NCBI GenBank assembly: GCA_014904985.1
Contig: MU128914.1
Coordinates: forward strand, 428,825 to 492,824
Direction of reading: 5' to 3'
DNA from: Hydnum rufescens UP504
Lineage: Eukaryota; Basidiomycota; Agaricomycetes; Cantharellales; Hydnaceae
Length of the DNA: 64,000 nucleotides
Shown here: positions 1,001-45,692 of the stretch, piece after piece
Layout of the letters: each line of letters opens with the position of its first letter
How positions within the stretch are numbered: position 1 is the stretch's first letter
The notes under the pieces: model-generated
The model's database searches: none
What the model saw: only the letters and a program-made list of their open reading frames with translations
Told to the model about the DNA's origin: nothing
Position numbers and translations under genes: made by a program

Positions 1001-3750
1001 ATGGCCTTATTTCCTGCCGGATCCGGCGGTGATGCTGCTGACTCTTTTGCTCCTATTGCTGAAACGGACTCTCCAGTCATCTGGAAGTTTCCTGACTTCT
1101 ATAGGAAGGTTACCTCTCCTGACTCTGCGTAAGTCATCCGGTTGCATACGTGCAACGGCATAATAACGGATACTGTTGGTAGGCTACATGCATTTATATC
1201 AGGGGATGTCCGAGACATTGTCTGTTGCCTGGGCATGGTTAGCATAGTTTATCACGTCCCCGCATTCCAGGTGGCTGAATGAACTTCCAGCCCTGCTATC
1301 TGCTCATGAGTGTCCACATCCAGAACCAGAGGGTGCCAATTGTCTGGTTGCGGGCGCAGAGGTGGTCGAATAGCAGGCCGGGTACAATTAAATTCTCCGC
1401 CAATCGCTCTAAGCTCGGGTATGGTTACCCTATGGTCACTACATTTGCTGCCCTGAATTTCTGTCACGTCATGGATTTTCTCAATAATATTACTCTACCC
1501 GACTTGGATCTCTACCCTTGGTTCTGGACTTGCCTCATCTTTGGAATGCTTCATCAAGGCTTCGGGGGATCTTGGGTCAAACCGCCCTCACCACGCTGGC
1601 TCAACAGCACCCTTGGTTCTTTCGCACAGCGTGCGGCCCGTATAGAATCCCTGCAGCGCCAATTTGCTATCCAGTTCCCTAATGCGGAAAAGATCTCACT
1701 CCGGGACTCGGAGAGATGGAAAAATGAGGTCACTTCTCTGTCTCAACCAGCCGATTTAACCTTACCCGAGGAACATCTCCAAGGATCGTTGCCCAATGCG
1801 AATGGTGGTCGAGGTCGCGAAATCAACCCCTCCAATGTGCTCACCTCAAAGCCTGTCAAATTCCCGACAGGACACGATCCGCATCATCGTTCAATATCCC
1901 GAACCAGGAACCCCTTGTCTGGCCAAACCGATGAAAGGCGGCCCGTGCAACCCGCCAATCCATTGTCAACTCCAACTCCTCCGACTCTGATGTCTCCTAA
2001 GGAGACTTCCACTGGAATAGACAAAGCCACGCCCATCCTGCAACGTGTTGTGATTATGGCTCCTTCCGCAGAAGCCTCGGGACAAGGCCCACAAGCTACC
2101 CCACCTTTTACCAATCCCCAATCCAGTCCCCCCGAAACTCCAAACTTGACTGGTCGTATTGTTCGTTTAGGCTCAACACCTATGGCCAGAGGAGGGTACT
2201 CCTCAGTCTGGAGAGGCACCTTGCTCTCTGCCACCTCCGACGACCCTCGCCAAACTCTTCAGGTGCTCTTTTCAATTGATAGCTCCCAGAGATGTGCTAA
2301 CAACCAATGCCCTAGGTCGCCCTCAAGGTGCTTCATGCTTCGTATACGGATGAGTCCACACTCAAACGGAAGCTCCTAAAGGTAATTTTATCTGACAGTT
2401 CCACCGTGGATCTTCCGTTCACGATAGGTGTAGCATCTGCAAGTAGAAATGCGAATATGGGCCCAATTACGTCACGAGAACGTGGTGAGATTATTAGGTC
2501 ATACCGAAGAACCTGAAGGGCCTGGTCTCGTTTCAATCTCGTACGTTCACGGTGATGTGCTGAGCTTTCTAGCGAGGAATCCAAGTGTCAATCGAGAGGT
2601 TATCGTACGTTTCGATGGGTATACTTTCACTCAAATATGGGGCCCATCCCCAATTGAGCTTGATTTTTACAGTGTGCCGATGTTGCGCTGGGATTGCAAT
2701 ACTTGCATGAACACAAACCTCCAATTATACATGGTGATCTTAAAGGGGTATGGTTGCATACGCGGAGCAGCGGTGCTTTGCTGATGAATTGATATCCTCA
2801 GCGGAACGTGCTGATCGATGGAGAAGGAAGAGGGAGTATTTGTGATTTTGGACTGTCTATAATTCTTGATGGGGGACCTACTGGCCATACGTCATCAATC
2901 TTCGGCGGGTCCCTGCGATTTCTGGCACCCGAACTTCTTGATGAAAACACTAGAACTGTGGAGACAGACATATATGCTTATGCATGCACTTGTATTGAGG
3001 TGCGATACATTCTTGCCGAGCGGCATGCCTTGTATCTAGCTTGTAACCCTCTATTCGCTGTAGATCTTGTTTGACCAGGAGCCCTACCACCAATTGTCCA
3101 AAGAGGCGCCCCTAATACGTGCTATATCAAATCATGAGCCTCCCTTTAAACCATCGAATGGGGAATTCACTTTTCCTTCAGTTCTGCGAATCTTGAAGCG
3201 CTGCTGGGATCACGACCGATCGAGTCGTCCACCATTGAACTTAATCATCGACACTGTAAAGCGCTGCCTGTACCGTGCCTATCGAACGAACTTGGGTATC
3301 CAACAAGGAATCGTATGTGCTCTCTCTGGATAGTACTCTGCTGATTATGCACCCAATTATCGGTTTACAGGGGCGGCGTGTTCGATTCATGTGCCTTCCT
3401 GGCGTTGAACAAGCAAGGTTAATCTGGGTCGACGATGATGGACTGAGCATTCTAGTGAAGTGTTCGTCGTCATTCCACCAAATCCCGATTTATCAGCGTT
3501 ATCGCTGGGAATTGATGGATAACCAAAACGTCGAAGGTGCGTTGCACCTCATTCTCTGACAGAAATAAAAGCTGATAAGGTCTTGGTAGACTTGGAGGGT
3601 GACCCTGATGCTTCTTCCCCTCTCTCGGGGAAAGATGAATCATCAGAGACCCTTCCCTACGTCTTAAAATGGATGGATTATTCTGCGAAATTTCGCCTCC
3701 CCTACTCGTCGAATGTGTCCTATGAGTCCTACCACAAAGCTTCTTCGTAA
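1001..3750 (+). CDS. Kinase array copy 1: TKL-type protein kinase with unknown N- and C-terminal domains
   Basis: A ten-exon model gives 746 residues with no internal stop. Exons are 1001-1128, 1183-1237, 1291-2262, 2316-2381, 2434-2604, 2673-2747, 2802-2999, 3064-3312, 3371-3536 and 3590-3750; introns are 52-68 nt, and intron 3 has a TGCTAAC branch site. The N-terminal part (YLLMSVHIQ, FGMLHQGFGGSWVKPP) is conserved across the array but unrecognised. A long Pro/Ser-rich linker leads to the kinase domain: GGYSSVWRG, VALK (lysine), EMRIW (helix C glutamate), HGDLKG, DFGLS, APELL and the late CWDHDRSSRP. A C-terminal extension follows. All catalytic residues are present, so it is probably an active Ser/Thr or dual-specificity kinase. 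The start at 1001 is the first in-frame ATG; the conserved 5' block of the other copies is missing because the array edge cuts it off, so the true 5' end and promoter may differ. Confidence 0.75.
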
Positions 3751-6700: not shown

Positions 6701-7770
6701 CAATATTCTCCCATGGTTCTCCCATGCTCTCGTATGGCTCTCTGACGAGAAGGACATGGACAGCCTTAATACGCCGCTTGTGCTGGAGTTTCCAGTCACA
6801 CGACTCGTTATTCTTTTGTGGGTCGTTGAATGTGTTGAGAAATCGGGATCGCACAGATGTGATCCTCACGCTGATGGATGGACCTTGATCTGCGACCGCT
6901 TTCCTTTGTCACGCTTCTTCTCCAGTGATCTTCACAGAGCCGTTCAATCGCGACATGGCAGCATATTCCCCAGTGATGGACCCGAAGACGAAGTAGTTTC
7001 CAATGAAACCTCATTGTGGCCGAGGAAAAATGCCTGGGCACAGTTATGCTATAATAACGGTATCTGCTGATGCTATGGAGACACGCTGCTCAACCTTCCC
7101 TGACGTCGTCAGTTTGCGACTGTCCTTTAGGACCGATATGAACCTGTTCTTAAACCGGAAACAAGTCTTCCGAGTCAGGCTTCGCATCCCGGTAAGCCTT
7201 TTTTTTCTTAATACACAGGTTGTGCGGACTATGTCAAGACGGTGAAATAAATTGACGGAGGTGAGCCAGGGAAGATTGGTATCTGTGATGCAGTAATGTA
7301 GACGAACGTACGTGTCTTGGCCGTTGTGTCACTTCCATACTCCAGATTCGCCTGGTCTTTGCGGCCTTGAATTTCATACGGTGTATTTCTACCTCCGCTG
7401 TCTCTTCATTTGCTCGTGGCTAAATATGTGGTGAAGACACCTGCAGTCAACATCAGAGCTCGGAGGTGGCAAGGGGCTGCCTAACTTGTTCGTTGCTTGG
7501 TCGTCCTCTGAGTGGAGGGATGACTTGCCTCCCTACTCGAGGAGAACGAAATAAGGAACCATGTTCATCGTCATTGTGCTTGGTGAGAAGGATACCGGAA
7601 GACTTGAGGTGATGGCTGTGAGACTACCTTGATCCCCAGGTATGAGGATGTGTCCAAACTTGAACCGATATGGCACACAGCAAGAGGTGTTCACGTACAT
7701 CATGGTTAGGATCAGCCCAGGTATATGTACTTAGAGTCTAGGAGCCGTTTACTATGACGGGACCACAAAA
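3751..7770. repeat. Spacer 1: decayed shared array modules
   Basis: No intact gene is seen. The 3' flank (3751-about 4310), a block around 4311-4560 and a block around 4560-5000 recur after copies 2, 3 and 6. The stretch 5220-5900 recurs within the same spacer at about 6880-7430, so this spacer is internally duplicated. Open frames here are short, lie on both strands and are not preserved between copies, which argues for decayed sequence. The relic at 6416-7070 is listed separately. Confidence 0.55.
6416..7070 (+). pseudogene. Unidentified coding relic in spacer 1
   Basis: The + strand holds overlapping open frames with protein-like composition (for example ILPWFSHALVWLSDE and LVILLWVVECVEK). 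Similar sequence lies in spacers 2 (about 12,180-12,560) and 3 (about 18,950-19,380), where the frames are broken by different stops. That pattern suggests a second gene once carried in the array unit. I do not recognise the family. It may not be expressed. Confidence 0.35.
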
Positions 7771-7788
7771 TTGCAAGGGTGTAGGCTT

Positions 7789-7947: not shown

Positions 7948-10540
7948 ATGGCACGCGAAGACAGATCGCCCTTTGTCATACCTCCATGGACAACGGTCTT
8001 GTCTCCCGTTGAATCCGACGCTGATGCCACTGACACTTTTGCTGCTATCGCTGAAATGGTCTATCCATTCGTCTGGAACACTCCTAACTTCTATAGGGAG
8101 ATTACCTCCCCTAAGTCTCCGTAAGTCATCCTGTTGAATATGTGCAGCCCCAGAATAACGGGGATTTTTGGTAGGCTGTGTGCATTTATATCAGGGGATG
8201 TCCGAGACATCGCATGTGGGCTGGGCGAGGTTGGCATAGTTTATCATGTCCTTGCGTCCCAGGTGGCTCAATCAACCTTCAGGACAGCTATCTGCTCATG
8301 AGTGTCCACATTCAGAACCAGAGGGTGCCAGTTGTCTGGTTGCGGGCGGAGACGTGGTTCTATGGCGCTCCGGGTAGAATCGAATTCTCCACCGACCGCT
8401 CTAAGCTCCGGGACACACGCAGTGATTACGCCATGGTCACCACATTTGCTACTCTGAATTTCCGTCACGCCATAGAGCTTCTCAATAATATTACTGTACC
8501 GCGCATCTACGTGGATGGAGACGATCGCTACCCTTGGCGCACGTGGTGGGCTTACCTCAACTTCGGAATGCTTCATCAAGGCTTCGGGGGATCTTGGGTC
8601 AAACTGCCACCAAGCTGGGTTGGCGAGCAATTTGTTGCCCCAAACGCAAAGTACGCGGATATGGAATCTGTGCAACGCCAATTCGTTATCCAGTACCCAA
8701 ACGCGAAAAAGATCTCACTCAGGGACCCGGAGAGATGGAAAAATGAGTCTACTTCTCTGTCCCAACCAGCTGATTTAACACTGGCAGGCACGAAAGAGAA
8801 AATAGCACATATTGGCTCAGCACCAACCTTACCGGAGGCACCATTTTCAACCAGTCCCCCCGAAACTCCCAACTTGACGGGCCGTATTGTTCGTTTAGGC
8901 TCAACACCTATGGCCACAGGCGGGTACTCCTCAGTCTGGAGAGGCAGCTTGCTCTCTCCCTCCTCCTCCTCCCCAGACCAAGCTCTTCAGGTATTGTTCT
9001 CAATTCATAGCTTCCACACGGTGTTTGTGCTAACCGCTGATGTCCTAGGTCGCCATCAAGGTCCTTCGCGCTTCATATACGGATGAGGACACACTCAAAC
9101 GGAAACTCCACAAGGTAATTTCATCTAATAATTGCACCATGAATATTTTATTCACGACATGTATAGCGTCTTCATGTGGAAATGCGAATATGGGCGCAAT
9201 TGCATCACGAGAACGTGGTGCGATTGTTAGGTCATACTGAAGAACCCGAAGGGCCTGGTCTCGTTTCAATTTCGTACCCTCACGGTAATGTCTTGAGGTT
9301 TCTAGCAAAGAATCCAAGTGTCAATCGAGAGATTATCGTGCGTTTACATCCATATACTTTCTCCCGAATACGGCATCCATCGCCCACTGAGTCCGATCTT
9401 TACAGTGTACCGATGTCGCGCTGGGATTACAATACTTGCATGAACACGTCCCTCCAATTATACATGGCGATCTGAAAGGGGTATGGTTGAATATCCCGAG
9501 CGATGGTGCCTTACTGATCAACTGATATCCTCAGCCGAACGTGTTGATTGACGCAGAAGGAAGAGCGAGTATTTGTGATTTCGGACTGTCTATTATTCTT
9601 GATGGGCACCCTACTGGCCATACGTCATCGAACTTCGGCGGGTCACTGCGATTTCTGGCCCCTGAGCTTCTGCACGAAAGCACTAGAACTGTGGAGACAG
9701 ACATATATGCTTATGCGTGCACTTGTATTGCGGTGGGATCATTCTCCACGTACGCTCGGCTTTGTGTCTAACTTGTAATGCTCCATTCACTCCAGATCCT
9801 GTTTGACCAGGAGCCGTATCACGAACTCTCCAAAGAGGCGCACATCATGAGTGCTATATGGAGTCATCAGCCTCCTTTTATACCAGCAAACGAGGATGGC
9901 ACGTTTCCTTCAATTTTGCGAGTTTTAGAACGCTGCTGGTCTCACGACCGATCGAGTCGGCCATCAGTGGACTTAATCATCGACACTCTACAGCGCTGCC
10001 TGTATCATACCTATCGAACAAACTTGGGCATCCACCAAGGAATCGCACGTGCTCTTTCTAGATAGTACTCTACTGGATTATGAACCTAGGTTATTGGTTT
10101 ACAGGGGAGGCGTGTTCGATTTATGTGCGTTCCTGGGATTGAAGAAGCAAAGTTGATCTCGGTCGCCGACGGTGGACTGAGCATCGTGGTGGATTCTTCG
10201 AGCTCATTCCACCGAGTCCCGATCTATCAGCGTTATCGATGGGAACTGATGGGTAAGCAGAACCTCAAAAACGGCTGGGCCTTATACTCTGACAGAAGTA
10301 AAACCTGATCGAGTATTGGTAGATTCCGAGTATGACTCCGATGGATCTTGGTTGCATAAAGCAGATCATCAGTCTTCGCCTTTCACTGCTTTCCCCTCCC
10401 TGGCGCGGAAGTTTGCATCATCATCGGAGATCCCCCCCTACGTCTCAAAATGGAAGGATTATTCCGCGAAATTCCGCCTTCTCTACTCGTTGATGGTGTC
10501 CTATGAGCCCTACAACGAGCCGACTTCGGGAACGGCATAA
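7948..10540 (+). CDS. Kinase array copy 2: intact TKL-type kinase, 686 aa
   Basis: Exons are 7948-8120, 8175-8229, 8283-8990, 9049-9114, 9167-9337, 9406-9480, 9535-9732, 9796-10044, 10105-10252 and 10323-10540; the sum is exactly 687 codons with stop. The unknown N-terminal part is about residues 1-250 and the linker is short. Kinase landmarks are GGYSSVWRG 289-297, Lys316, Glu339, HGDLK 411-415, Asn418, DFG 431-433, APE 458-460 and Arg537; the C-terminal extension starts near 566. Two splice oddities were compensated: intron 8 has a GC donor (GCACGT, 10045), and intron 9 uses a new GTAAGC donor at 10253 because the usual GTGCGT site is lost. The start was chosen at the ATG conserved in copies 2-6; an in-frame ATG at 7789 would add 53 residues. 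Probably active. Substrate and localisation are unknown. Confidence 0.8.
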
Positions 10541-13800: not shown

Positions 13801-16212
13801 ATGGCGCACAGAGCCAAAGCTTGGTTGCGCTCTCTCATGCCTCCAAGGACAGCAGTCTCGTCTCCCGCTGGATCCGGCGCTGCTGTGCGGCACTCTTTTG
13901 ATGCTATCGCTCAAAGGGAGGGGGAGCTTGTCCCTCCTCTGTAAGCCATCCTGTTGAATACATGGAGCTGCATAATAACGGAGATTTCTGGTAGGGTGGA
14001 TGAATTTCTATCTGGGAATGTCCGAGACATCGTCTGTTGCCTGGGCCGCGGGGTTGGCATAGTCACGTCCTTGCATTCCAAGCGCAGCGGCTGAATGAAC
14101 TTCCAGGACTACTATCTGCTCATCAGTGTCCACATCCGGAACGAGAGCGGGGTAGTTATCTGGTTGCGGGCGGAGAAGCAGTCCTATAACAGCTCGGGCA
14201 CAATTCAATTCTCCGCTGACCGCTATAAGCTCGGGGAACCCCGCGACATTGACATCATGACCACCGCACTTCAAGTTACCCTGAATTTCTCTCACGTCAT
14301 GAACATTCTCAATAATATTAATCTACCACACTTGGATACCTCTGGCTACTCTGGGTGGTGGGCTTGCCTCAACTTCGGAATGCTTCATCAAGGCTTTGGG
14401 GGATCTTGGGTCGAACCACCCCCACCAGGCTGGTGGGGGAGGGCCCTCCCTTCTTTCGAGTCCCACGTGGCTTCCATAGAATCCATGGAGCGCCAATTTG
14501 CTATTCAGTACCCTAACGCGGGAAAGATCTCACTCAGGGACCCGGAGAGATGGACAAACGAGGCTGGTTCTCTGCCGGGACCGGCCAGTCCCTTCGAAAC
14601 TCCCAACTTGACTGGCCGTATCGTTCGTTTAGGCTCAACACCCATGGCCAGAGGAGGTTACTCCTCAGTCTGGAGAGGCAGGTTGATCTCTACCACCTCG
14701 GACGACCCTCACCGAACTCTTCAGGTGCTCTTTTCAGTTGATGGCTCCCGGTGGGTGCCTGTGCTAACAACCGATTCCCTAGGTTGCCCTCAAGGTTCTT
14801 CACGTTTCGTATACAGACGAGTCCATAATTAAACGGAAACTCCACAAGGTAATTTTATCTGACAGTTCCACCATGGATCTTCCGTTCACAATAGGTGTAG
14901 CATCTACATATAGAAATGCGAATATGGGCCCAATTGCGTCACGAGAACGTGGTGAGATTGTTAGGTTATACTGAAGAACCTGAAGGGCCTGGACTCGTTT
15001 CAATCTCTTACGTTCACGGTGATGTCTTGAGCTTTCTAGCAAAGAATCCAAGCGTCAATCGAGAGATTATAGTGCGTTTACATCGATATACTTTCACCCG
15101 ACTATGGGGTGCATCCCCAACTGAGCTTGATCTTTACAGTGTGCGGATGTTGCACTGGGATTACAATACTTGCATGAACACAAGCCTCCAATTATACATG
15201 GCGACCTTAAAGGGGTATGGTCGAGTACACGGAGGGGTGATGCTTTGCTGACGAATTGATATGCTCAGCGGAACGTGCTGGTCGATGCGGAAGGAAGAGC
15301 GAGTATTTGTGATTTTGGGCTGTCTATAATTCTTGATGGACAACCTACTGGCTATACGTCATCGAACTTCGGCGGGACATTGCGATTTCTGGCTCCCGAA
15401 CTTCTTGACGAACGCACTAGAACCATGCAGGCAGACATATATGCTTATGCATGCACTTGCATTCAGGTGTGATACATTCTTGCCGTACCCTGCACTTTGT
15501 GTCTGACTTTTAGTCGGTATTCAATGCAGATCTTGTTTGACCTGGGACCCTATCACCTACTATCTGAAGATGCACACCTTATGCGTGCTATATTAGATCC
15601 CGATCGGCCTCCCTTTGAACCATCGGATGAGGAGGTCACGTTCCCCTCAGTTTTGCAAGTCTTAAAACACTGCTGGTCTCATGACCGATGGAGTCGGCCA
15701 TCGGTGAACTTAGTGATCGACACTCTGCAGCGCTGCTTATACCGTTCCTATCAAACAAACTTGGGCGCCCACCAAGGAGTCGTGCGTGCTCTCTCTGGAT
15801 AGTACTCTACTGGATTATGCCCCTAGATTGTTGGTTTACAGGGGAAGCGTGTTCGATTTATTTGCCATCCTGACGTTGGACAAGCAAAGCTGATGTGGGT
15901 TGGCGACGATGGACTGAGCATTGTGGTGAAGTCCTCAACCTCATTCCACCAAATCCCGATTTACCAGCGCTATCGTTGGGAATTGATGGATAGGCAGAAC
16001 ATCAAGGGTGCACTGTGCCTTACTTTTTAACACAAGTAAAAGCTGATAGGGTATTAGTAGATTCGGAAGACGGTTCCAATCTCTCGGGGAAGGATACGTC
16101 ATCATCGGAGAGCCCTCCCTACATCTCAAAATGGATAGACTACTCTGTTAAATTTCGCCTCCCTTACTCATCGATGGTGTCCTACAAGTCCTACCACAAA
16201 GCCACCTCGTAA
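13801..16212 (+). CDS. Kinase array copy 3: compact TKL-type kinase, 631 aa
   Basis: Exons are 13801-13940, 13995-14052, 14107-14724, 14783-14848, 14901-15071, 15140-15214, 15269-15466, 15530-15781, 15842-16007 and 16061-16212; the frame is complete. Relative to the other copies exon 1 has lost about 36 nt, and the linker between the N-terminal part and the kinase domain is almost gone (the ERWTNEAGSL segment runs nearly straight into PNLTGRIVRLG). The kinase motifs GGYSSVWRG, VALK, EMRIW, HGDLKG, DFGLS and APELL are all present; exon 8 has one extra codon. The start is the ATG aligned with those of copies 2 and 4-6; the frame is open upstream to 13702 without another ATG. It shows that the linker is dispensable for an open frame. 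Probably active. Function unknown. Confidence 0.78.
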
Positions 16213-24152: not shown

Positions 24153-27067
24153 ATGATGGCTGACCGAGACAGAGCGAGCTCGCTCGTTCTCATGTCTCAA
24201 GCCCAAATGATCGACTCACCCTCCGTTGGCCCTGGCTCTTTTGCTGGTTTCGCAAAAGCGGACCGTCGAGCCACCTGGCCCATCTCCTCCTTCCATGAGA
24301 GAGTAAGTTCTCCTGACTGTGTGTGAGTCATCTTGTTGAATACGTGCAGTGGCATAATAACGGGGACTCTGGTTAGGGTGCATCCACTTCTATCAGGGGA
24401 TGTCCGCGACATCACCTGCTACGAAGACACGGTTGGCATAGTCTACATATGTATTGTGTCTTTGCATTGCAGGTGGCTAAACGGACTTCCAGGACTATAT
24501 GTTCATGTGTATCCACGTCCAGAACGGGGAGGTACCAATTGTCTGGGTTGGGTCAATCACTCTGGACTCGGTGTTTCCGCCGACCCCTCTAAGCGTTGGA
24601 AACCAGACACCGGTCGCTTCATCACCACCACATTTACCACCCTGAATTTCCGTCACGTCATAGACCTTCTCAAGAATACTGATGTAGCCATAGGGGCTGA
24701 CCCGATCCCTAGGCTGCAGGTTTCCATCGTCATTGGAATGCTACATGGAGGCTTCGGGGGAACTTGGGTCAAACCGCCCTCAGTGAACTGGCTCACGAAG
24801 TCCTTCAAGTATCTCGCAAGGCGCACGGACATTGTGGAATCCGTGGCGCGTGAATTTGCTATCCAGCACCCTGACGTGAAAAGTATCTCACTCAGGGAAC
24901 CGGAGATATGGAAGAAACAGCCTGTTTCTTTGTCCCAACCACCGAGCTCAAAAAAGGATGGTCCCGAGGATGCCGATTCAAACCCAGGGGGACAAAAGAG
25001 AAAATAGCACGTACTAGCTCAGCACCCACCTTATCAGACGAACATCTCCAAGAACCTCGCCCAATGCAGTCGCCCAATGCGAATAGTGCAGTACCTACTC
25101 CTGCAACCGATGCTGAGAAGAATGGTGGTGATCAGCCTCGAGGTCGCAAAATTCACCACGCCAATGCACTCACCTCAGAGGTTCTCGAATCCCCTATGCC
25201 GTACGATTCGCATCGTCGTTCAATATCCCGAGGCAGGACCCCTTGTCTGGCCAAACCGATGAGAGGCGACCGGTGCAAGCCACCAATCCATCCTTAACAC
25301 GTACTCCTCGTAAAGCGGCTTCGAACGGAATAGATGAAGCTACGTCCATTTTGCAGGGCGCCGTGATTACGGCTCCTTCCGCGGAAGCCTTGGGACAAGG
25401 CCCACAAGCTAGCCCACCATTTTCCGATCCCCAACCCAGTCCCCCCGAAACCCCCGACTTGACCGGTCGCATTGTTCGTTTAGGCTCAATACCCATGGCC
25501 AGAGGGGGGTACTCCTCAGTCTGGAGAGGCACCTTGATTTCTGCCACCTCCGACGACCCTCACCAATCTCTTCAGGTGCCCTTTTCAATCCATAGCTCCC
25601 GGAGAGTGCATATACTAACAACCGATGCCCTAGGTCGCCCTCAAGGTCCTTCACGTTTCGTATACAGACGAGTCCACAGTCAAACGGAAACTCCACAAGG
25701 TACTTTTATCTGACACTTACACCATGGATCTTCTGTTCACGATAGGTGTAGCATCTGCATGTAGAAATCCGAATATGGGCCCAATTGCGTCACGAGAATG
25801 TGGTGAGATTGTTAGGTTATACTGAAGAACGCGAAGGGCCTGGTCTCGTTTCAATCTCGTACGTTCACGGTGATGTCCTGAGCTTTCTAGCGAAGAATCC
25901 AAATGTCAATCGAGAGATTATTGTGCGTTCGCATCGATGTGCTCCCACTCAAATATGGGGTGCGTCCCCAACTCAACTTGATCTTTACAGTGTGCCGATG
26001 TTGGGCTGGGATTACAATACTTGCATGAACACAAGCCTCCAATTATACATGGCGACCTCAAAGGGGTATGGCTGAGTGCACGGAGCGGTGATGCCTTACT
26101 GATGAATTGATATGCTCAGCGGAACGTGCTGATCGATGCGGAAGGAAGAGGGTGTATTTGTGACTTTGGACTGTCTATAATTCTTGATGGGGGACCTACT
26201 GGCTATACGTCATCGAACTTCGGAGGGTCCCTACGGTTTCTGGCTCCCGAACTTCTTGATGAAGGCACTCGAACTGTGGAGACAGACATATATGCATATG
26301 CATGCACTTGTATTGAGGTGGGATCTCGCTGTACGCCGTGCTTGTGTGTAACTTTTAATGGTTCATTCACTGTAGATCTTGTCTGACGAGGAGCCCTACC
26401 ACCAGCTCTCCAAAGAGGCACAGCTTATCCGTGCTATATTGGATCGTCGGCCTCCCTTTGGACCATCGAGCGAGAACGTCACGTTCCCTTCCATTTTCCA
26501 AGTCTTAAAACGCTGCTGGTCTCACGACCGATCGGCTCGGCCGCCATTGAACTTAATTGTCGACACTATACAGCGCTGCCTGTACCACACGTATCGAGCA
26601 AACTTGGGTGTCCACCAAGGAATCGTACGTACTCTTTCTGACCGGTACTCTACTGGATTATGCATCCAAATTATTGGTTGACAGGGGAGGCATGTTCGAT
26701 TCATGCGCCTTCCCGGGGTTGAACAAGCAAAGCTGATATGGGTCGACGACGATGGACTGAGCATCGTGGTGAAGTCCCCGACGTCATTCCACCAAGTCCC
26801 GATTTATCAGCGTTATCGCTGGGAATTGATGGATAACCAGAACGTCGAGGGTGCGTTGCACCTTGTTCTCTATCACATGCAAAAGCTGATAAGGTCTTGG
26901 TAGATTCGGAAGACGACCCTCATGCTTCATCCTCTCTGTCAGGGAAAGGTGCATCGTCATCAGAGAGGCCTCCCTACGTCTCAAAATGGAAGGATTACTC
27001 TATGAAGTTTCGTCTCCCCTACTCGGCGATGGTGTCCTACAAGTCCTACCACGAAGCTTCTTCGTAA
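24153..27067 (+). pseudogene. Kinase array copy 5: frameshifted, mosaic
   Basis: Exon 1 (MMADRD...) and the splice sites are recognisable, but exon 3 changes frame three times: near 24,550 with a local deletion, near 24,985 in a G run, and near 25,240 in a C run. From about 25,243 the frame is open again and the whole kinase domain (GGYSSVWRG, VALK, HGDLKG, DFGLS, APELL) and C-terminal extension to 27,067 look intact. The N-terminal half (MLHGGFGGTWVKPP, QPPSSKK) resembles copies 6-8, while the linker end and kinase resemble copies 1-4, so it looks like a recombinant. It is probably a pseudogene as a full-length gene. Two of the breaks lie in homopolymers and could be sequence errors. Confidence 0.7.
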
Positions 27068-28669: not shown

Positions 28670-31600
28670 ATGATGGCAGGCGGAGACATAGCGACATCGC
28701 CCATTCTCATACCTCGAAGGAATTGGGCTTTGTCACCCACTGTTGACGCTGTCTATTTTGCTGCTATCGCAAAAAAGGATCCCCCGGCTGTCTGGGCTTT
28801 TAATCGCTTCTATGAGGAGGTTACCTCTCCTAATTCTAGGTCAGTCATCTTGTTGAACATGTGCAGCGGCATAATAACGAGGACTTTTGATAGCCTTGGT
28901 GCATTTAGGTCAGGGGATGTCAGAGATATTGCATGCTACAAAGACGGGGTTGGCATAGTCTATGTATCATGTCCTTGCATTCCAGACAGCTGAATGAATC
29001 TCCAGGTCTGCGAATATTTGCTCATGCGTGTTCACATCCAGAACGAGAAGATCCCGGTTGCCTGGGTGCGGGCGGAGAGGCCGCCCATTGGGCCGGACAC
29101 AATCAAATTCTCCGCCGAGCGCTCCAAGCTCTGGGACCAAGAGGATAATGACATCATGGCTAGCGCATTTGCTACTTTGAGTTTCCGTCACGTAATAGAC
29201 CTTCTGGGCATCGTCCACACGGTAACCATGATATCTAGGTTGGACTCTATGTGGTACGCTGGCATCATCATCGGAATCCTTCATGGGGGCTTTGGGAAAT
29301 TTTGGGTCAATCTGCCCCCACCAGACTGGGTCAAGATCGCCCTCAATCTTTTCAGAGGCGACGCGTTGGACGCTACCCAATCCGTGGAACATCAATTTGC
29401 TATCCAGCACCCCAGCACGAAAAAAATCTCACTCATGGAGCCGGACGCATGGGACAACAAGCCCACTCCTCTGTCTCAACCCCCGAGCTCAGAAAGGATG
29501 ATCTCGAGGGGGTCGATTTAGACCCAGCAGGGACGAAAGGGAAAATAGCACGTGTCCGCTCAGTACCAACTTCGTCACAGGAAGATCTGCGAGAACCTCG
29601 GCCACTGCAGTCGCCCCGTGCGAATAGTGCTGTCCCTGTCAATGGGGCCGATGCTAAGAAGAATGCTGGTCGCCATCGCCGAAGTCACAAAACAAAGACT
29701 CGCTCCGCCCCAGGGATTGACCGTTCCAATGTACTCGCCTCGAAGGCCTTTGAATCGCTAAGACCATACGATCCAGATCGTCGTTCAAGATCTCGAAGCA
29801 GGAGTCCCTTATCTGATCAGAGCGATGAGAGGAGTCTCATGCAGCCCGCTAGTGGATCCACAACTCCCACACCTTCCACTCGGATCTCTGCTGAAGAGGG
29901 TTCTACCGGAATAGATGAAGCTCCAGTCATTCTGCAACATGTTGTGATTACGGTCCCTTCCAGAGAAGCTTTCGGACTCGGCCCACAAACCAGTCCATCA
30001 TTGACCAATCCCCAAGCCGAACCCCTCGAAACTCCCAATTTGACTGGGCGCATTCTTCGTTTGGGCTCAACGCCTATCGCCACTGGCGGGTACTCCTCAG
30101 TCTGGAGAGGCAGCTTGCTCTCTGATGCCTCCGACGACCTTCAGGTGTTCTCGTCGATTGGTAGCTCTCGCGGGATGCATGTGCTAACAGCCGATGCCCT
30201 AGGTCGCCATCAAGCTGCTTCGTGCTTCGTATACGGACGAGGACACGCTCGAACGGAAACTCCAGAAGGTAGTTTTATCTCACACTTCTACCAAGGATCT
30301 TTCATTCACGATGGAGATAGCGTCTGCGTGTAGAAATGCGCGTATGGGCCCAATTGCGTCACGAGAACGTGGTGAGATTGTTAGGTCGTAGTGACGAACC
30401 CGAAGGGCCCGGTCTCGTTTCAATGTTCTACCCTCATGGTAACGTGCTGAGCTTTCTAGCGAAGAATCCAAATGTCAATCGAGAGGTTATCGTGCGTTTA
30501 CCTCCATATTCTTTCTCTCAAACATGGGATCCATCGTCCACTGAGCTTGATCTTTACAGTGTGCCGATGTTGCACTGGGATTGCAATATTTGCATGAACG
30601 GAAGCCTCCAATTATACATGGCGATCTGAAAGGGGTATGCGTGAATACACGGAGCAGTGGTGCCTTGCTGATCAATTGATATCCTCAGCCGAACGTGCTG
30701 ATCGATGGAGAAGGAAGAGCGAGTATTTGCGATTTCGGACTGTCTATAATTCTTGACGGGGGACCCACGGGCCATACGACGTCAAACTTTGGCGGGTCAC
30801 TGCGATTTCTGGCCCCTGAACTTCTCGACGAAAGCGCCAGGACTGTGGAGACAGACATATATGCCTATGCATGCACTTGTATTGAGGTGGGATCCACTCT
30901 CATCGGGCGCCGTGCTTTGTGTCTAACCTGGAACTTGAATCATCCATTCACTGTAGATCTTGTTTGATCAGGAGCCCTACCAGGAACTCTCCAAAGAGGT
31001 ACACATCATGAGTGCTATATGGAATCATCGGCCTCCCATTGAACCATCGAACGAGGAAGTTACGTTTCCTTCGTTTTTGCGGATCCTGAAACGCTGCTGG
31101 AATCACAACTCATCGAGTCGGCCACCATTGAACCTAATCACCGACACTATGCAACGCTGCCTCTACCAGTACCTATCGAACAAATCTAGTCGTCCACCGA
31201 GGAATTGTGAGTGTTCTTTCTGGATAGTGCTCCACTGGTTCATAGAGCCAGATTATTGGTCTACAGGGAAGGCGTCTGCGATTTATGTGCCTTCCTGGCA
31301 TTGAAGAAGCAAAGCTGGTTTCAGTCACCGATAGTGGACTGAGCATTGTCGTGGATTCTTCGAGCTCATTCCACCGGGTCCCGATTTATCAGTGTTATCG
31401 CTGGGAATTGATGGATAGGCAGGACCTCGAGGGTGCGTTCGGTCTTCTTCTTTAACAGAAGCAAAAGCTGATAGATGTTGATAGATTCGGAGGATGGTTC
31501 TGATGTATCTTGGACGCATGAAACAGATCATGAGTATTCACCTTCCGCTTCCTCCCCTCTCTCACGGGGAAGTTTCCCCATCATTGGAGACCCCTCCTTA

Positions 31601-31691
31601 CGTCTCAAAATGGACGGATTATTCTGCGATATTTCGGCTCCCCTACTCGTCGTTGGTGTCCTATGAGCCCTACAACGAAGCTATTTCGTGA
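28670..31691 (+). pseudogene. Kinase array copy 6: several frameshifts
   Basis: All exons and most splice sites are recognisable. A one-base loss near 29,490, between the N-terminal part and the linker, shifts the frame. A one-base gain near 31,167 (CLYQYLSNK) shifts exon 8; another gain near 31,270 and one near 31,575 affect exons 9 and 10. The kinase core itself keeps GGYSSVWRG, VAIK, HGDLKG, DFGLS and APELL. The linker is long and has an arginine/serine-rich run (RRSRSRSRSP). The intact first part could still give a short protein with only the N-terminal domain (about 240 residues). It belongs with copies 7 and 8 by its N-terminal sequence (VWVRAER, DIMASAFATL). Confidence 0.72.
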
Positions 31692-34896: not shown

Positions 34897-34904
34897 TTAA
34901 ATAT
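34897..34904 (+). promoter_or_regulatory. TATA-like element upstream of copy 7
   Basis: TTAAATAT is in the same conserved context as that before copy 6 (28,600-28,607). The ATG that follows it in copy 6 has been lost here. Confidence 0.3.
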
Positions 34905-35044
34905 CGAGCATGCGCATTCTCCACTCAATGTTATGACTCTCGTGCCGGATTCCTCGCACTTCTGATCACGGAGACAGAGCGAGGTCGCCTATCATCATAC
35001 CAAGGGTTTTGTCTCCTCTTGTTGACGCTGGCTCTTTTACTGCT

Positions 35045-37894
35045 ATGGCAGAAGTGGAACCTCTAATGTCCTTGGAGTTTCCTCGCTTCCATCAGATGAT
35101 TACCTCTCCTAACACCGAGTAAGTCTTCTTCTTGAATATATACATACAGCGGCATAACAACGGAGATTTTTAGGATGCTGGGCCCCTTTACATCAGGGGA
35201 TGTCGGGGATATCGCGTTCTACAAAGACGGGGTTGGCATAACCTATCGTGTCCTTGCATTCCAGGCAGCTAAATGAACCTCCAGGCTGGCGAGTACCTGC
35301 TCATGTGTGTTCACACCCCGAACGAGAAGATCCCGCCAATCTGGGTGCGGGCGGAGAGGCCGCTCACTGGGCCGGATACGATCAAGTTCTCCTACAACCG
35401 CTGCAAGCTCTGGAAACCAGGCGACGATGACATCATGGCCAGCGCATTTGCTACCCTGAATTTCCGTCACGTCACAGACCTTCTGAACATCGTCCATAAG
35501 GTAACCAGCGCTTACAGAATGGCCCATCGGGACTCTGCATGGCACCTTAGAATGTCCCAGTGGGACTCTTTGTGGTACGCTGGCGTCGTCATCGGAATCC
35601 TTCACGGACACTTTGGGAAATCTTGGATCAAGGAGCCCCCACCAGACTGGGTCAAGGTCGCCCTCAAGCTTTTCGGAAGGAAGACGAAGTGGGCTACGGA
35701 ATCCGTGGAACACAAATTTACTATCCAGCACCCTAACACGAAAAGGATCTCACTGATGGAGCCGTCGACATGGAAAAACGAGCCCACACCTCTGTCCCAA
35801 CCACCGAGCTCAAAACAGGATGATCGGGAAGAAACCGATTTAAACCCAGCAGGCACGAAGGAGAAAATGGCACGTATTGCCTCAGCATTAACTTTGCTGC
35901 AGGACAACCCCCAACAGCCTCACCCAATGCAGTTACCTAATGAAAATGGTGTAGTGTCTGCCGCCGCGACTGATTCCAAGAAGAATAGTGATGACCAACC
36001 TCGTGGTCGCAACGTAAGGGTTCCCCTCGCCCCAGAGATTGACCCCTCCAACGTACTCGGCTCAAACTCCCTCGAAGAGGCTTCCACCGGAATAGGCGAA
36101 GCCACAGCCGTTCTGCGAGATGTACTGAGTGCGGTTCGTTCCCCAGAAGCCATTGAGCGAGGCCCACAAGCTAGTTCATCATCTACCAATGCCCAACCTG
36201 GTCCCCCGGGAACTCCTAACTTGACTGGCTGCCTTGTTCGTTTGGGCCCAACCCCCATGGCCGCAGGCGGGTACTCAGTCTGGAGGGGCAACTTGCTCTC
36301 TGCCACCTCCGATGAACCTGGCCGAGCTCTTCAGGTGTTCCTGTCAATTGATAGCTCTCGCAGATCGCATGTGCTAACGGCCGATGCCCTAGGTCGTCAT
36401 CAAGGTGCTTCATGCTTCGTATACGGATGAGGACACGCTCAAACGGAAAGTGTCCAAGGTGATTTTCTCTCATAGTTACACTGTGGATCTTTCGTTCATG
36501 ATGGTGTAGGATCTGCATATGGAAATGCGCATATGGACCCAATTGCATCACGAGAACGTAGTGAGATTTTTAGGCCATACTGAAGAACCAGAAGGGTTTG
36601 GTCTCGTTTCAATTTCGTACCCTCACGGTAATGTCTTGAGCTTTCTAGTGAAGAGTCCAAGTGTCAATCGAGAGGTTATCGTTCGTTTGTATTCATATAC
36701 ATTCTCTCGAATATGGCCCCACTGAGCTTGATCTTTACAGTGTGCTGATGTTGCCCTGGGATTGCAATACTTGCATGAACAAGAACCTCCAATTATACAT
36801 GGCAATCTGAAAGGGGTATGTTTGAATATGGGCGGAGCGGTGATGCCTTGCTCATCAACTCATATCGTCAGCCAAACGTGTTGATTGATGCGCAAGGAAG
36901 AGCGAGTATTTGCGATTTCGGACTGTCTATAATCCTTGATGAGGCACCTACTGGCCATACGCCGTCAAACTTTGGCGAGTCACTGCGATTTCTGGCTCCC
37001 GAACTTCTGGAAGAAAGCACTAGAACTGTGGAGACAGACATATATGCTTATGCATGCACTTGTATTGCGGTAGGATCTATCCTCGCCGTTCGTTGTGCTT
37101 TGTGTCTGACTCGTAATTGTCGATTCGCTGTAGATCCTGTTTGACCAGAAACCCTACCCCAAACTGTCCAAGGAGGCACACCTCATGCGTGCCATATTTA
37201 GTCATCAGCCTCCCTTTGAACTATCGGACGAAGAAGTTACCTTTCCTTCGTTTTGGCGAATTTTGAATCGCTGCTGGGATCACGACCGAACGAGTCGGCC
37301 ACCATTGAACTTAATCATCGACACTATACAGCGCTGCCTCTTCCGTACCTATCGAACAAATTTAGGGGTTCAGCAAGGAATCGTACGTGCTCTTCCTGGA
37401 TAGTTCTTTACCGGATTATGCACCTAAATTATTGGTTTACAGGGGAGGCGTGTTCGATTCATGGGCCTTCCTGGCATTGAACAAGCAACCCTGATCTCGC
37501 TCACTGATGGTGGACTGAGCATCGTGGTGAATTCTTCGACTTCATTCCACCGAGTCCCGATCTATCAGCGTTATCGCTGGGAAGTGATGGATAGTCAGAA
37601 CCTCGATAGTGCGCTCCGTCTCCCTTTCTATCACAAATACAACCTGATAGGGTGTTGGCAGATTCGGACGGTGACTCCGATGTATCTTGGCCCCTTGGAG
37701 CAGATCATCAGTATTCGCCTTTCCCCACTTTCCCCCGTCTCTTGGGGAACTTTGCACCACCGTTGGAGAGGCCTCCCCACGTCTCAAAATGGAAGGATTA
37801 TTCTGAAAAATTTCGCCTCCCTTACTCGTTGAGGGTGTCATACGAGACCTACAATGGAGCTACTTTGAAAATGGTATTATCCATGTCACGGTGA
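35045..37894 (+). CDS. Kinase array copy 7: probable pseudokinase (HGN instead of HGD)
   Basis: Exons are 35045-35118, 35174-35231, 35285-36334, 36393-36458, 36510-36680, 36741-36815, 36872-37069, 37134-37382, 37443-37608 and 37662-37894; the frame is complete and gives 779 residues. The ATGATGGC start used by copies 5 and 6 is deleted near 34,960, so the first in-frame ATG is inside exon 1 and the N-terminus is shortened. The catalytic-loop aspartate is replaced by asparagine (HGNLKG, codon 36,804-36,806), and the Gly-rich loop has lost one serine codon (GGYSVWRG, about 36,265-36,288). Lys (VVIK), helix C Glu, DFG and APE remain. In kinases generally the HxD Asp is the catalytic base, so phosphotransfer is expected to be lost or very weak while nucleotide binding may remain. 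The otherwise clean ten-exon frame suggests selection or recent change. Confidence 0.7.
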
Positions 37895-40314: not shown

Positions 40315-40570
40315 GAGATGAAATCAAAAGCGAAAGCGACAGCGTTTCTCATTCTCCTTTTCCTATTCAGTTCTCTCATTAGAGATCAAATCAAAAGTGA
40401 AAGCGGCAACGTTCTCCTTTTCCTATTCAGTTCTCTCATTAGAGATCAAATCAAAAGTGAAAGCGGCAGCGTTCTCATTCTCCTTTTCCCATTCAGTTCT
40501 TTCATTAGGGATCAAATCAAGATTGAGCCGGCAGCACTTTCGTTCTTGTTTTCCTATTCAGACTCATAAT
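40315..40570. repeat. Minisatellite, about four units of 60-67 bp
   Basis: Units start at 40315, 40382, 40442 and 40508 with GAGATSAAATCAA-type beginnings and share CTTTTCCTATTCAGTTCT. Length changes come from a missing CTCATT-like piece. The last unit is most diverged. The array lies just upstream of copy 8 exon 1 in place of the promoter region seen before copies 6 and 7, and it keeps one open frame (40,318-40,569) that is probably incidental. Confidence 0.75.
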
Positions 40571-40650
40571 CCTATAAGGCCGACAAAGAGTCTTCCGTGA
40601 TCCTGATTCCTGGCCTATATAATCCCTCTGGGGGGGATCTCCCCCCTGTC

Positions 40651-43600
40651 ATGTTCTCGTCCTGGTCATTGGGTCCATTGGGTGGTCGGTCCATTGCTAT
40701 TCACCCCAATGCTTTCGCCTATATTGCAAAAGCCGAACCTCCATTCTCCTGGCCCGTTGCTTACTTCTATAAGGAAGTTACCTCTCCTGAATCCTGGTAC
40801 GTCGTCCTGGTCAGTACATGCAGTATCACAATACCGGAGACTTTTGGTAGGCTGGATTCATTCAAATCAGGAGATGTCCAAGACATCGTGTGCTACAAAG
40901 ACAGGGTTGGCATAATCTATCGTGCCCTTGCATTCCAGGCAGCTGAATAAAGCTCCAGGTTCACGAATATCTGCTCATGTTTGTTCGCATCCCGAACCAA
41001 GGTATCCCGCCTGTCTGGGTGCGGACGGAGAGGCACCCCATGAAAAGTGGCATTGCGAAAATGTTTTCTCGATCTCTCGATGCGCTGGATACGATCAAGT
41101 TCTCCTACGACCGCTCCAAACTTTGGAACCCAGAGGACGATAATATCATGGCCAGTGCATTTGCTGACTTGAATTTCCGTCATGTCATAGACCTTCTGAA
41201 CACCATCCATGAGTTGACCAACATTCGCGGGATAACCGGATTAAACCATACGTGGTACGCCCGCATCGTTATAGGAACGCTTCAAGGAGGGTTTGGGAGG
41301 GTTTGGCTGAATCCGCCCCAACGAGACTGGGTCATTGCCCTCAACCTTTTCGGAAGGGATACGACCCAGGCCACGCAATCTGTAGAGCACCGATTTGCTA
41401 TCGAGCAGCCTAGCATGAACACATTGTCACTCATGCAACAAGACGAATGGAAAAACGAGACATTGGCCCGAATCCTCTCTACTCAATTATCTCCCGATGA
41501 TGTGAGTCCATCCATTAATGAGTGGCAGCCTCTCTATCTCACTTGAAGCAATGTCGTACAGCACGGTCCCACTCTGCCTCGCGCTCCTGAGCACGCTCCC
41601 CAATCTCAGGCAAGTGGCTCTCACTCGCCAACAGAGATTCCCTTCTCTCCAATCGGTGTACGTTTCGATTCGGATTGTACCCCATCGGCCTCTATCGTTC
41701 AGCCCCCACTCTACGATGCAAATATCAGTCTCACCTCCGGATTGATGCCAACAACGTTCACGACTGGAAGGACCTGTGTTCCCCCAGTGAGAAATATCGC
41801 TGCTTTGTAAACGGGATGTTGACCTCCAACCGACGATTAGAATGTTGCTCCTATCAACTCTTCTTCAGAGCCATCGTGGATGTGGGATGCTATTCCCAGT
41901 GTATGCAGACCAGGATGTCAGTTCGTCGTTCCCATGCCCACTCCTATGTCCCAACCGCCGAGTTCAAAACATGATCATGATGGAACCGATTCAAACCCAG
42001 GTGCATCCCAGGACATTCATCGTCGACGTATCTTTGATAAGTTCATTCCGTCGATCGCGAAGGCGGATGAAGTGCCCCAAGGCGCATTTGTTGGAGATAC
42101 CCGACAAGGACAGCAGGGGAAACCGCCCATACATTCTACTCCTAATCCTAACCGTGGTCCTAGGCCGACTGTCAATGTTTTTCCTTCATCTGAACTGGCA
42201 ACAGAGCAAGCCAGCCCATCATTTACCAACGCCCAACCTCCCCCCGAACCTCCTAACTTGACTGGGCGCATTCTTCGTTTGGGCTCAACACCCATCGCCA
42301 TGGGCGGATACTCCTCGGTCTGGAGGGGCCGCTTGTTCTCTGCTACTTCCGGCAATCCTGACAGATCTCTTCAGGTGTTCTTCTCAATTGATCATTCCCG
42401 CCGGGCGCATGTGCTAATAGCCGATGCCCTAGGTCGCTATCAAGATGCTTCGTGCTTCGCATACCGATGAATACACGCTCAAACGCAAGCTACACAAGGT
42501 AATTTTACCCGACGGTTGCACCCTGGATCTTTCGTTCACGAATACTTGTAGCGTCTGCATATAGAAATGCGAATATGGGCCCTATTGCGCCACGAGAACG
42601 TGGTGGGATTGTTAGGTTATATTGAGGAGCCCGAAGGACCTGGTCTCGTTTCGATGTTGTACTCTCACGGCAATGTGTTGAGTTTTCTAGCGAAGAATCC
42701 GAGTGTCAATCGAGAGGTTATTGTACGTTGATATCGATATGCTTTCACTCCAATATGGGCTCCATCCCACACTGAGCTTGATCTTTATAGTGTGCCGATG
42801 TTGCGCTGGGATTACAATACTTACATGAACACGAGCCCCCAATCATTCACGGTGATCTTAAAGGGGTATGCCTGAATATGCCGAACCGTGGTGGTGTCTT
42901 TTCTGATCAATTTATATCCTCAGCCCAACGTACTGATCGATGCAGAAGGAAGAGCTAGTATTTGTGATTTTGGACTGTCCGTAATCCTTGATGGGGGCCT
43001 ACTGGTCACACTTCATCGAACTTCGGGGGGTCATTGCGATTCTTGGCTCCCGAACTTCTTGAAGAAAGCACTAGAACTGTGCAGACAGATATATACACAT
43101 ATGCGTGCACCTGTATTGAGGTGGGATCTTTTTCCACTGTTTGTTCCCCCGTGCTTTGTGTCTAACTTGTCGATTCACTGTAGATCTTGTTTGACCAGGA
43201 GCCCTACCACCAGCTCTCCAAAGAGGCGCACCTTATGCGTGCTATATTGGGTCATCAGCCTCCCATTGAACCATCAGATGAGGAAGTCACTTTTCTTTGT
43301 TTTTGCAAATCTTGAAACGCTGCTGGGATCACGACCAGTCGAATCGGCCATCATTGAACTTGATCATCGACACTATACAGCGCTGTCTGTATCATACCTA
43401 TCGAACAAACTTGGGCGTTCACCGAGGAATCGTACGTGCTCTTTCTGGATAGTGCACCACTGGCTCATGCACCTAGGTTATTGGTTTATAGGGGAGGCGT
43501 GTTAGACTTAGATGCCTTCCTGGTATTGAACAAGCAAACCTGGTTTCGATCGTCGACGGTGGACTGAGTATCGTGGTGGATTCTCCAACCTCACTCTACC

Positions 43601-43937
43601 GAGTCCCGATTTATCAGCGCTATCGCTGGGAATCGATGGACACCCAGAGCCTCGGTGGTGCGTAGCCTCTCACCCTCGCACAGACGCAAGACCTGATAGG
43701 GATTTTATAGCTTCGGAGGATTTCGATGTATCCTGGTCCCATGAAGCAGAATCTCAGAATTCTTTTTTCACTGCTTCTTCTCTCTCGGGGAAGGATGGAT
43801 CATCATCGGAGAACCCACCCTACGTCTCAGAATGGAGGGAATATTCTCCAAAATTCCGCCTCCCCTACTCGTCAATGGTGTCCTACGAGCCTTACAACGA
43901 AGCGAGTTCAGGAGCGACGAAATTGATGCCAGGATGA
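40651..43937 (+). pseudogene. Kinase array copy 8 (with exons 7-10 unit 8a): interrupted
   Basis: Exon 1 (40651-40796), exon 2 (40851-40905) and the first part of exon 3 (from 40959) are intact, up to about 41,462. There about 490 bp of unrelated sequence with stops interrupts exon 3; homology resumes near 41,945 (SQPPSSKHD) and runs to 42,374. Exons 4-6 (42433-42498, 42552-42722, 42791-42865) are intact with VAIK and HGDLKG. Exon 7 (42924-43120) lacks one G in a G run near 42,995 and exon 8 (43184-43431) lacks one T in a T run near 43,292, each breaking the frame. Exons 9 and 10 (43492-43657, 43711-43937) are intact. The N-terminal sequence groups with copies 6 and 7. Splicing from exon 6 to the second cassette (8b) could avoid the two indels but not the insertion. 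Confidence 0.65.
41463..41945 (+). other. Foreign insertion in copy 8 exon 3, with LRR-like fragment
   Basis: This segment has no counterpart in any other copy. It contains open stretches resembling leucine-rich repeat or F-box-associated sequence (LLSTLPNLRQVALT, FPSLQSVYV) in one frame. A GTGAGT at about 41,500 could act as a donor. No terminal repeats or target-site duplication were recognised, so the mechanism (gene-fragment capture, ectopic repair) is open. Confidence 0.5.
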
Positions 43938-44267
43938 GAATTGATAGCAGACCTTGAGCCGGGGCGCAGGAAGGGGGCTGGAAATCACTGGAGGCGAGTC
44001 CAATGACACTGGCGACCATCTCCTTCAGTTGTGACTACCCATCTCAGGTCTTATTCGGTCGCGTCATATTATGTATGGACTCGGATATGGGCGCCTGCGA
44101 TCGCGTAGACAAGGTTAACTCACGCATATGGAAGGGGGAAAGGAAAGGAATTACATGAAATGCGACATGTACCCGGGACGTTATCGCAACTAAGCAAGAA
44201 TTCCGAGGATATGAATAGAAATACGTTGTGGAGCTGGGGAATGTGCCTATTTGGGATAGGACCCATC
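42851..44267. repeat. Direct tandem duplication, unit 1 (about 1.4 kb)
   Basis: The unit starts inside exon 6 of copy 8 (GGTGATCTTAAAGGGG) and ends in the kinase 3' flank. It is followed without spacer by a nearly identical unit 44,268-45,692. Because the unit includes the exon 6 donor and the intron 6 acceptor, the duplication copies a complete set of exons 7-10. Confidence 0.85.
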
Positions 44268-45692
44268 GGTGATCTTAAAGGGGTATGCCTGAATATGCCG
44301 AACCGTGGTGGTGTCTTTTCTGATCAATTTATATCCTCAGCCCAACGTACTGATCGATGCAGAAGGAAGAGCTAGTATTTGTGATTTTGGACTGTCCGTA
44401 ATCCTTGATGGGGGGCCTACTGGTCACACTTCATCGAACTTCGGGGGGTCATTGCGATTCTTGGCTCCCGAACTTCTTGAAGAAAGCACTAGAACTGTGC
44501 AGACAGATATATACACATATGCGTGCACCTGTATTGAGGTGGGATCTTTTTCCACTGTTTGTTCCCCCGTGCTTTGTGTCTAACTTGTCGATTCACTGTA
44601 GATCTTGTTTGACCAGGAGCCCTACCACCAGCTCTCCAAAGAGGCGCACCTTATGCGTGCTATATTGGGTCATCAGCCTCCCATTGAACCATCAGATGAG
44701 GAAGTCACTTTTTCTTTGTTTTTGCAAATCTTGAAACGCTGCTGGGATCACGACCAGTCGAATCGGCCATCATTGAACTTGATCATCGACACTATACAGC
44801 GCTGTCTGTATCATACCTATCGAACAAACTTGGGCGTTCACCGAGGAATCGTACGTGCTCTTTCTGGATAGTGCACCACTGGCTCATGCACCTAGGTTAT
44901 TGGTTTATAGGGGAGGCGTGTTAGACTTAGATGCCTTCCTGGCATTGAACAGACAAACCTGATTTCGATCGTCGACGGTGGACTGAGTATCGTGGTGGAT
45001 TCTCCGACCTCACTCTACCGAGTCCCGATTTATCAGCGCTATCGCTGGGAATTGATGGACACCCAGAGCCTCGATCGGTGCGTTGCCTCCCACTCTCACC
45101 CAAACCTGGGACCTGACAGGGATATTGCAGATTCGGAAGATTTCGATGTATCCTGCCAGTGGTCCCACGAAGCAGAATCTCAGAAATCATTTTTCACCGC
45201 TTCTTCTTCTCTCTCGAGGAAGGATGGATCATCATCGGAGAGCCCACCCTATGTCTCAAAATGGAGGGAGTATTCTCCAAAATTCCGCCTCCCCTACTCG
45301 TCGATGGTGTCGTACGAACCTTACAACGAAGCGAGCTTCAGGAAACGGGAGAATTGATGCCAGGATGAGGATTGATAGCAGACCTTGAACCGGGGCGCAG
45401 GAGGGGGGATTGGAAATCACTGGAGGCGAGTCCCAATGACACTGGCGACAATCTCCTTCAGTTGTGACTACCCATCTCAGGTCTTATTCGGTCGCGTCAT
45501 ATTATGTATGGACTCGGATATGGGTGCCTGCGATCGCGCAGACAAGGTTAACTCACGCATATGGAAGGGGGAAAGGAAAGGAATTACATGAAATGCGATG
45601 TGTACCCGGGACGTTATCGCAACTAAGCAAGAATTCCGAGGATATGATAGAAATACGTTGTGGAGCTGGGAAATGTGCCTATGTGCGATAGG
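44268..45692. repeat. Direct tandem duplication, unit 2 (about 1.4 kb)
   Basis: This is the second copy of 42,851-44,267, recognisable end to end (GGTGATCTTAAAGGGG to a GATAGGA near 45,690). Differences from unit 1 are few and scattered. It has the full-length G and T runs that unit 1 lacks. Confidence 0.85.
44341..45357 (+). pseudogene. Partial kinase 8b: duplicated exons 7-10 only
   Basis: Exon 7 (44341-44538: NVLID, DFGLS, APELL) and exon 8 (44602-44850, ending near HRGI) have clean frames, unlike 8a. Exon 9 starts at about 44,911. Exon 9 and exon 10 are joined by one open frame because an extra base together with the 53-nt intron 9 sequence keeps the frame to the stop at 45,357. It lacks the N-terminal domain and the kinase N-lobe, so it cannot be a kinase on its own. 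It could serve as alternative 3' exons for copy 8. C-terminal motifs (YQRYRWELMD, PPYVSKW) are conserved. Confidence 0.65.

Follow-up and report, generated by a model that had tools for sequence, protein, structure and literature searches.

A tandemly arrayed family of predicted TKL-group kinases with a fast-changing N-terminal domain in Hydnum rufescens

The genome of Hydnum rufescens UP504, an ectomycorrhizal fungus of the Cantharellales, contains a large family of genes whose models join, within one polypeptide, an N-terminal domain some 230 residues long (here, the N-domain), a linker, a kinase domain and a C-terminal extension. The N-domain of these proteins has a ratio of nonsynonymous to synonymous change about three times that of the kinase. 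The window from which the analysis starts is a stretch of 64,000 nucleotides (contig C6, MU128914.1:428825-492824), and the assembly searched around it amounts to 63.2 Mb. On the plus strand of the window, our own spliced protein-to-DNA aligner recovers eight TKL kinase gene copies and a partial ninth, in agreement with a preliminary description that had proposed eight or more such genes in tandem.

On balance, these genes probably form a lineage-specific family of intracellular TKL-group kinases, in which an N-domain supplies the input to a constant kinase chassis and which has spread in arrays. Here, the N-domain would be a changeable module for the binding of some partner or ligand, the kinase (of the Ser/Thr type, to judge by its motifs) would be the constant output, and the C-terminal piece would dock onto shared partners. 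Copies would be gained by unequal exchange and lost by frame shift and stop. The outcome would be a reservoir of N-domain variants upon one signalling chassis.

The array and its gene structure

The copies in the window are collected in Table 1, where the state of each (stops and frame shifts) is that of the best of three models. Where copies match one another over long stretches (1.4-2.3 kb), their DNA is 78-85% identical. Upstream of the first copy lies a stop at 929, and the interval 929-977 holds no in-frame ATG. In copy 7 the catalytic Asp is replaced by Asn (HGNLKG), and the extra introns of its model may hide breaks. The N-terminal half of copy 8 corresponds to the NCBI entry BS47DRAFT_926171 (P0003), which matches the copy 8 model with 97.8% identity over 508 residues. 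The partial ninth copy sits in a segment (44267-45693) that is a 95% duplicate of 42850-44261. Just 5' of copy 8 is a tandem repeat (40309-40561) with 3.9 copies of a unit of approximately 60 nt.

Table 1. Gene copies, parts of copy 2, and a diverged relative within the window.
Feature	Position in window	Strand	Remarks
Copy 1 (c1)	977..3747	+	open frame, nine introns; modelled first exon without in-frame ATG
Copy 2 (c2)	7948..10537	+	open frame; GC donors in the models of introns 8 and 9; borders of intron 9 uncertain
c2 intron 1	8121..8174	+	same position in gene models P0003 and P0121
c2 intron 2	8230..8282	+	4-8 nt longer in some copies; GTTGGC donor in most window copies
c2 exon 3	8283..8990	+	one open frame: N-domain core, linker, kinase start
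c2 exons 4-8 with introns	9049..10044	+	remaining kinase domain and start of C-terminal region
c2 C-terminal extension, exons 9-10	10105..10537	+	small beta-rich piece, then tail
Copy 3 (c3)	13801..16209	+	model with one in-frame stop; best-scoring model has 8 introns
Copy 4 (c4)	20728..23351	+	model with one frame shift
Copy 5 (c5)	24156..27064	+	three frame shifts, all in exon 3 (N-domain and linker)
Copy 6 (c6)	28673..31688	+	model with three frame shifts
Copy 7 (c7)	34967..37864	+	model without stop or frame shift; two extra GC-AG introns
Copy 8 (c8)	40651..43919	+	two frame shifts in kinase
Partial copy 9	about 44264..45382	+	kinase C-lobe and C-terminal extension; front half absent
Diverged N-domain relative	60017..60313	+	30% identity, E 6.3e-5

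The genes probably start at the ATG of a "MANGDRARSP" motif, because reading further upstream requires frame shifts in many copies. From there, nine short introns recur, of about 54, 53, 58, 52, 68, 54, 64, 60 and 53 nt. It had been claimed that every copy shares nine introns and a fixed order of domains. This goes too far, since the ninth copy lacks its front half and the best-scoring model of the third has 8 introns. Of the 48 modelled loci (the eight window copies and 40 others), 39 carry nine or more introns that are 42-75 nt long. Introns of this length comprise 406 GT-AG and 18 GC-AG cases, although the aligner permits only these two kinds and the modelled borders are, of course, not independent proof.

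Independent support for introns 1 and 2 comes from the gene models P0003 and P0121. Intron 2 gains further support from copies that differ in length by 4 and 8 nt between conserved borders. In at least 21 of the 48 models, a single frame of exon 3 stays open from the N-domain across the linker up to the P-loop of the kinase, while its other two frames are rich in stops.

For the 3' end of the gene, a C-terminal profile search of the databases delivers 23 proteins, one under the name H. rufescens and 22 from JGI. In four proteins (P0133-P0136) the kinase C-lobe continues directly into the extension, intron 8 being absent, as read by eye from the alignments. Intron 9 is absent in twelve JGI proteins (P0133-P0143, P0146) and in the NCBI model P0149; it is read through in P0144, P0145, P0147 and P0148, P0150-P0153 stop inside it or shortly past it, and P0154 and P0155 are ambiguous. 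Two of the intron-free proteins pair closely with copies in the window: P0141 is identical to the C-terminus of copy 3 at 88 of 88 residues, and P0133 shares 98.9% identity with copy 4 over 175 aa. P0139 and the locus L042 are identical over 105 residues. The simplest reading of such intron-free database proteins would be that transcripts of the family are spliced.

The kinase, its flanks, and their relatives

An early model of copy 2 matches PF07714 at E 2.6e-35, scoring 122.4 bits where the curated cut-off is 23.1, with PF00069 lower at 108.7. The catalytic Lys is present in 45 of the 48 models, the catalytic Asp in 43, and the Asp of the DFG motif in 44. These Pfam scores and motifs suggest that the family belongs to the TKL group, as had been proposed. 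The five Pfam families that match copy 2 at E<=1 do not include PF17667 (FunK1), and Pfam finds no NACHT, NB-ARC or WD40 family in the copy 2 kinase protein.

It had also been suggested that the proteins may be a receptor- or sensor-kinase-like class. Here, hydropathy gives no transmembrane segment (19-residue Kyte-Doolittle means reach at most 1.44 in 12 open models), and the "receptor" label therefore finds no support; the first 30 residues of the same models do not, by eye, resemble a signal peptide. The best reading is an intracellular sensor or adaptor kinase.

That the flanks match no familiar family, another point of the preliminary description, agrees with searches of Pfam, NCBIfam and PDB, which offer no credible match for either the N- or the C-terminal flank. 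The two predicted structures are of low quality (pLDDT 49 and 51). Among 12 aligned sequences, an SGDV motif and several Trp positions are invariant.

Relatives in the protein databases were sought in several ways. A full-length search scored 7992 candidates of about 415-1321 residues and gave 369 proteins at E<=1e-3; the best 61 (P0001-P0061) align on the kinase domain, except for P0003 and P0007, which align on the N-domain. A profile made from 12 N-domain sequences and applied to proteins in a length range of about 125-399 residues yielded 12 matches (five under the name H. rufescens, six from JGI, one from ENA). A wider N-domain profile, run on 155 database proteins, found 14, all of them existing members, with the next at E 0.1. 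Within the protein-length ranges searched, no N-domain appeared in another named species.

The tail of the C-terminal extension (about 10440-10489 in copy 2) carries a stretch of approximately 20 residues, KWxDYSxKFxLxY, with a weak similarity to the beginning of a polo box. Polo-like kinases also place a C-terminal module behind a kinase, as the Hydnum family does, but the resemblance of the tail is not significant: it matches PLK1 at E 0.64-0.83, and other proteins match better (E 0.57-0.59). The POLO_box family was rejected as a candidate, as PF00659 matches the genome at C23 only (E<=1) and is absent at E<=1 from 10 C-terminal sequences.

Searching with the N-domain of copy 8 brings in more diverged relatives, on C85 (E 5.9e-10), C108 (5.2e-7) and C77 (3.7e-6), together with the one at the far end of the window (Table 1), beside which no kinase (PF07714) occurs among the matches listed. 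On C108 and C85 the diverged N-domain is followed by a diverged kinase, whose group is less sure on C108, where the tested exon slightly favours PF00069 (68.8 bits) over PF07714 (64.5). These genes stand in tandem (L053, C108:30000-36600; L054, C85:179500-185700), and three of the copies read from them share a motif H-[SC]-CWWY.

At two further loci, L051 on C247 and L052 on C187, the kinase and C-terminus of the family lie behind another front region. By eye, these two front regions are alike and differ from the common N-domain. Because the family kinase and C-terminus are here combined with a different front, an exchange of front domains appears likely, although this front may itself be a remote N-domain.

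Copy number, rates of change, and rival explanations

The N-domain of copy 2, used as query, gives 109 genome matches, which form at least 87 loci on 25 contigs. Paralogues outside the window, whose existence the preliminary description had left to be checked, are thus found. In at least 76 of the 87, a C-terminal match follows 0.9-4.5 kb further downstream in the same orientation, and 57 stand in arrays of three or more, with a median spacing of 6167 bp. The C-terminal query adds to this: 150 of its 152 genome matches form at least 100 loci, 24 of them without an N-domain in front. Outside the window array lie 79 of the 87 N-domain loci, and 40 stretches from these areas were modelled to give, with the eight window copies, the set of 48.

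Queried with one common sequence, 12 of the 48 give near-complete models free of stops and frame shifts. The count of open copies becomes 13 because copy 2, open with the best of three queries, joins these 12; it may be high, since in four of the 12 (L021, L028, L031 and c7) the aligner has inserted one or two additional introns. The rest carry a stop or frame shift or are incomplete, so that the mixture of intact, mutated and broken copies noticed in the window extends to the modelled family.

Units of about 6 kb dispersed over 25 contigs might, of course, be moved by a mobile element that carries the kinase as cargo. Relatedness trees, built from family members only, speak to this. Judged by the kinase, seven of the eight window copies (all except c7) are nearest to a copy in another array, as such an element would have it. 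Judged by the N-domain, c1-c5 are nearest to other arrays, and c6, c7 and c8 to copies in the window. With 44 copies and 35 testable cases, the nearest relative of the N-domain lies in the same array in 10 of 35, where shuffling gives a mean of 3.5, which argues against mobility, although the maximum under shuffling is 13. The corresponding numbers are 7 of 35 for the kinase (shuffled mean 3.6, highest 10) and 11 of 35 for the C-terminus (3.5, highest 11). Eight intergenic open reading frames contain no Pfam family above its cut-off, and the intergenic DNA has no clearly favoured frame. A mobile element is thus a quite improbable vehicle. N-domain and kinase point to the same nearest relative in 11 of the 44 copies, a level of agreement for which either exchange or a star-like tree may be responsible.

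The rates at which the parts of the protein change are unequal. Over all copies, pairwise comparison and tree counting together give dN/dS values of 0.72-0.85 for the N-domain, 0.58-0.65 for the linker, 0.26-0.29 for the kinase and 0.40-0.42 for the C-terminus. Pairwise values (medians and ratios of means, from pairs with dS 0.05-1.5) are 0.72-0.82, 0.58-0.61, 0.26-0.27 and 0.40, in the same order. Tree counting on 44 of the 48 copies (L044, L041, L046 and L047 were left out) gives 0.82-0.85, 0.65, 0.29 and 0.42. Insertions and deletions were compared at 42 of the 48 loci: of 58 in the N-domain, 34 have a length divisible by three, against 11 of 45 in introns. Twelve sites in all show positive selection at p<0.05, nine of them among the 226 of the N-domain, which is no excess over chance. 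The rate result would fit a tolerant and a diversifying N-domain alike, and does not tell them apart.

One could hold, then, that unequal crossing-over in regions rich in repeats has multiplied a once-useful family, its N-domain now drifting since little hangs on it and few of its copies working. In the one-query scan, 36 of 48 models have a stop or frame shift or are incomplete (a number that includes copy 2, open with another query), the positively selected sites of the N-domain do not rise above chance, and intergenic DNA is repeated as well as the genes. With only about a quarter of the modelled copies open, some of the speed of the N-domain could be due to relaxed constraint. Yet the contrast persists among the 13 open copies (N-domain 0.77-0.85, linker 0.50-0.59, kinase 0.29, C-terminus 0.43-0.44), and the open frame of exon 3 and the invariant SGDV and Trp positions also speak for constraint. 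As a full account, relaxed constraint is possible and rather doubtful.

A more specific proposal is that, once hyphae have fused, the N-domain senses viruses or non-self proteins and the kinase then triggers a response. A fast N-domain ahead of a conserved kinase, tandem arrays with loss, two loci where the front region differs while the kinase is that of the family, and a NACHT-WD40 gene adjoining the array speak for such self/non-self or immune recognition. Against it, there is no site-level excess of selection, and a single NACHT-WD40 neighbour makes no association. The hypothesis is attractive, its grounds being the rate contrast, the change of front region and the array form; we consider it unlikely nevertheless. 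Equally unlikely is its fuller version, an intracellular recognition system with a swappable, fast N-terminal sensor on a constant TKL kinase, maintained in dozens of arrayed copies, as a fungal counterpart of the kinase-fusion immune receptors of plants.

Known systems and neighbouring features

The preferred reading, a lineage-specific kinase family with a changeable input, has partial precedents. A large lineage-specific increase of TKL kinases is described in the ectomycorrhizal mushroom Laccaria bicolor, and the Hydnum family resembles it in this respect; the part of that account consulted makes no mention of this N-domain, linker, C-terminal extension or arrays (PMC2838846). It leaves open, in the same part, whether an expanded TKL set is exceptional or typical of mycorrhizal symbionts at large (PMC2838846). 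The FslK kinases, a fungi-specific lineage placed near tyrosine kinases without being true ones, are, in the portion of their description seen, likewise expanded in Agaricomycetes with catalytic residues kept (PMC3937382). TKL expansions are thus already known in mushrooms, and the architecture reported here looks undescribed as far as these partial sources go (PMC2838846, PMC3937382). In the main text of the Hydnum genome paper, as far as seen, the species is named once and the word "kinase" is absent (PMC7550596).

No description of the architecture was found in the openly licensed literature searched on Hydnum, on TKL expansions and on fungal kinase recognition. We know of no flanking domain common to FslK and the Hydnum family. 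The resistance proteins of the Sr43 type in plants are reportedly kinase fusions, in which a kinase is joined to domains of unknown function; they offer an analogy from another organism for how the Hydnum proteins might work.

With at least 87 loci and a fast N-domain clearly set apart from the conserved kinase, H. rufescens provides a testable case for the question of TKL expansion. Counts of its kinome may be too low, as only seven NCBI entries under its name came up with a flank of the family (P0003, P0121, P0128, P0130, P0131, P0132 and P0149, from length-limited searches of clusters at 90% identity).

Recognition-type evolution has been proposed for fungal NACHT-WD40 genes. The same is proposed here for the Hydnum kinases, although the copy 2 protein differs in having neither domain. 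Such a gene lies on the minus strand at 50998-54902, adjoining the array: a NACHT/NPHP3_N open reading frame followed by a WD40 frame with 11 WD40 stretches. The DNA of the latter is a 126-bp repeat in 10.8 copies with 77% matches. Two segments of the window, 47131-50008 and 58112-63988, are direct repeats of 74-84% identity. Both contain a Ser/Thr-rich open reading frame with a hydrophobic end (48681-48977 and 58462-58767), which perhaps encodes a small anchored protein.
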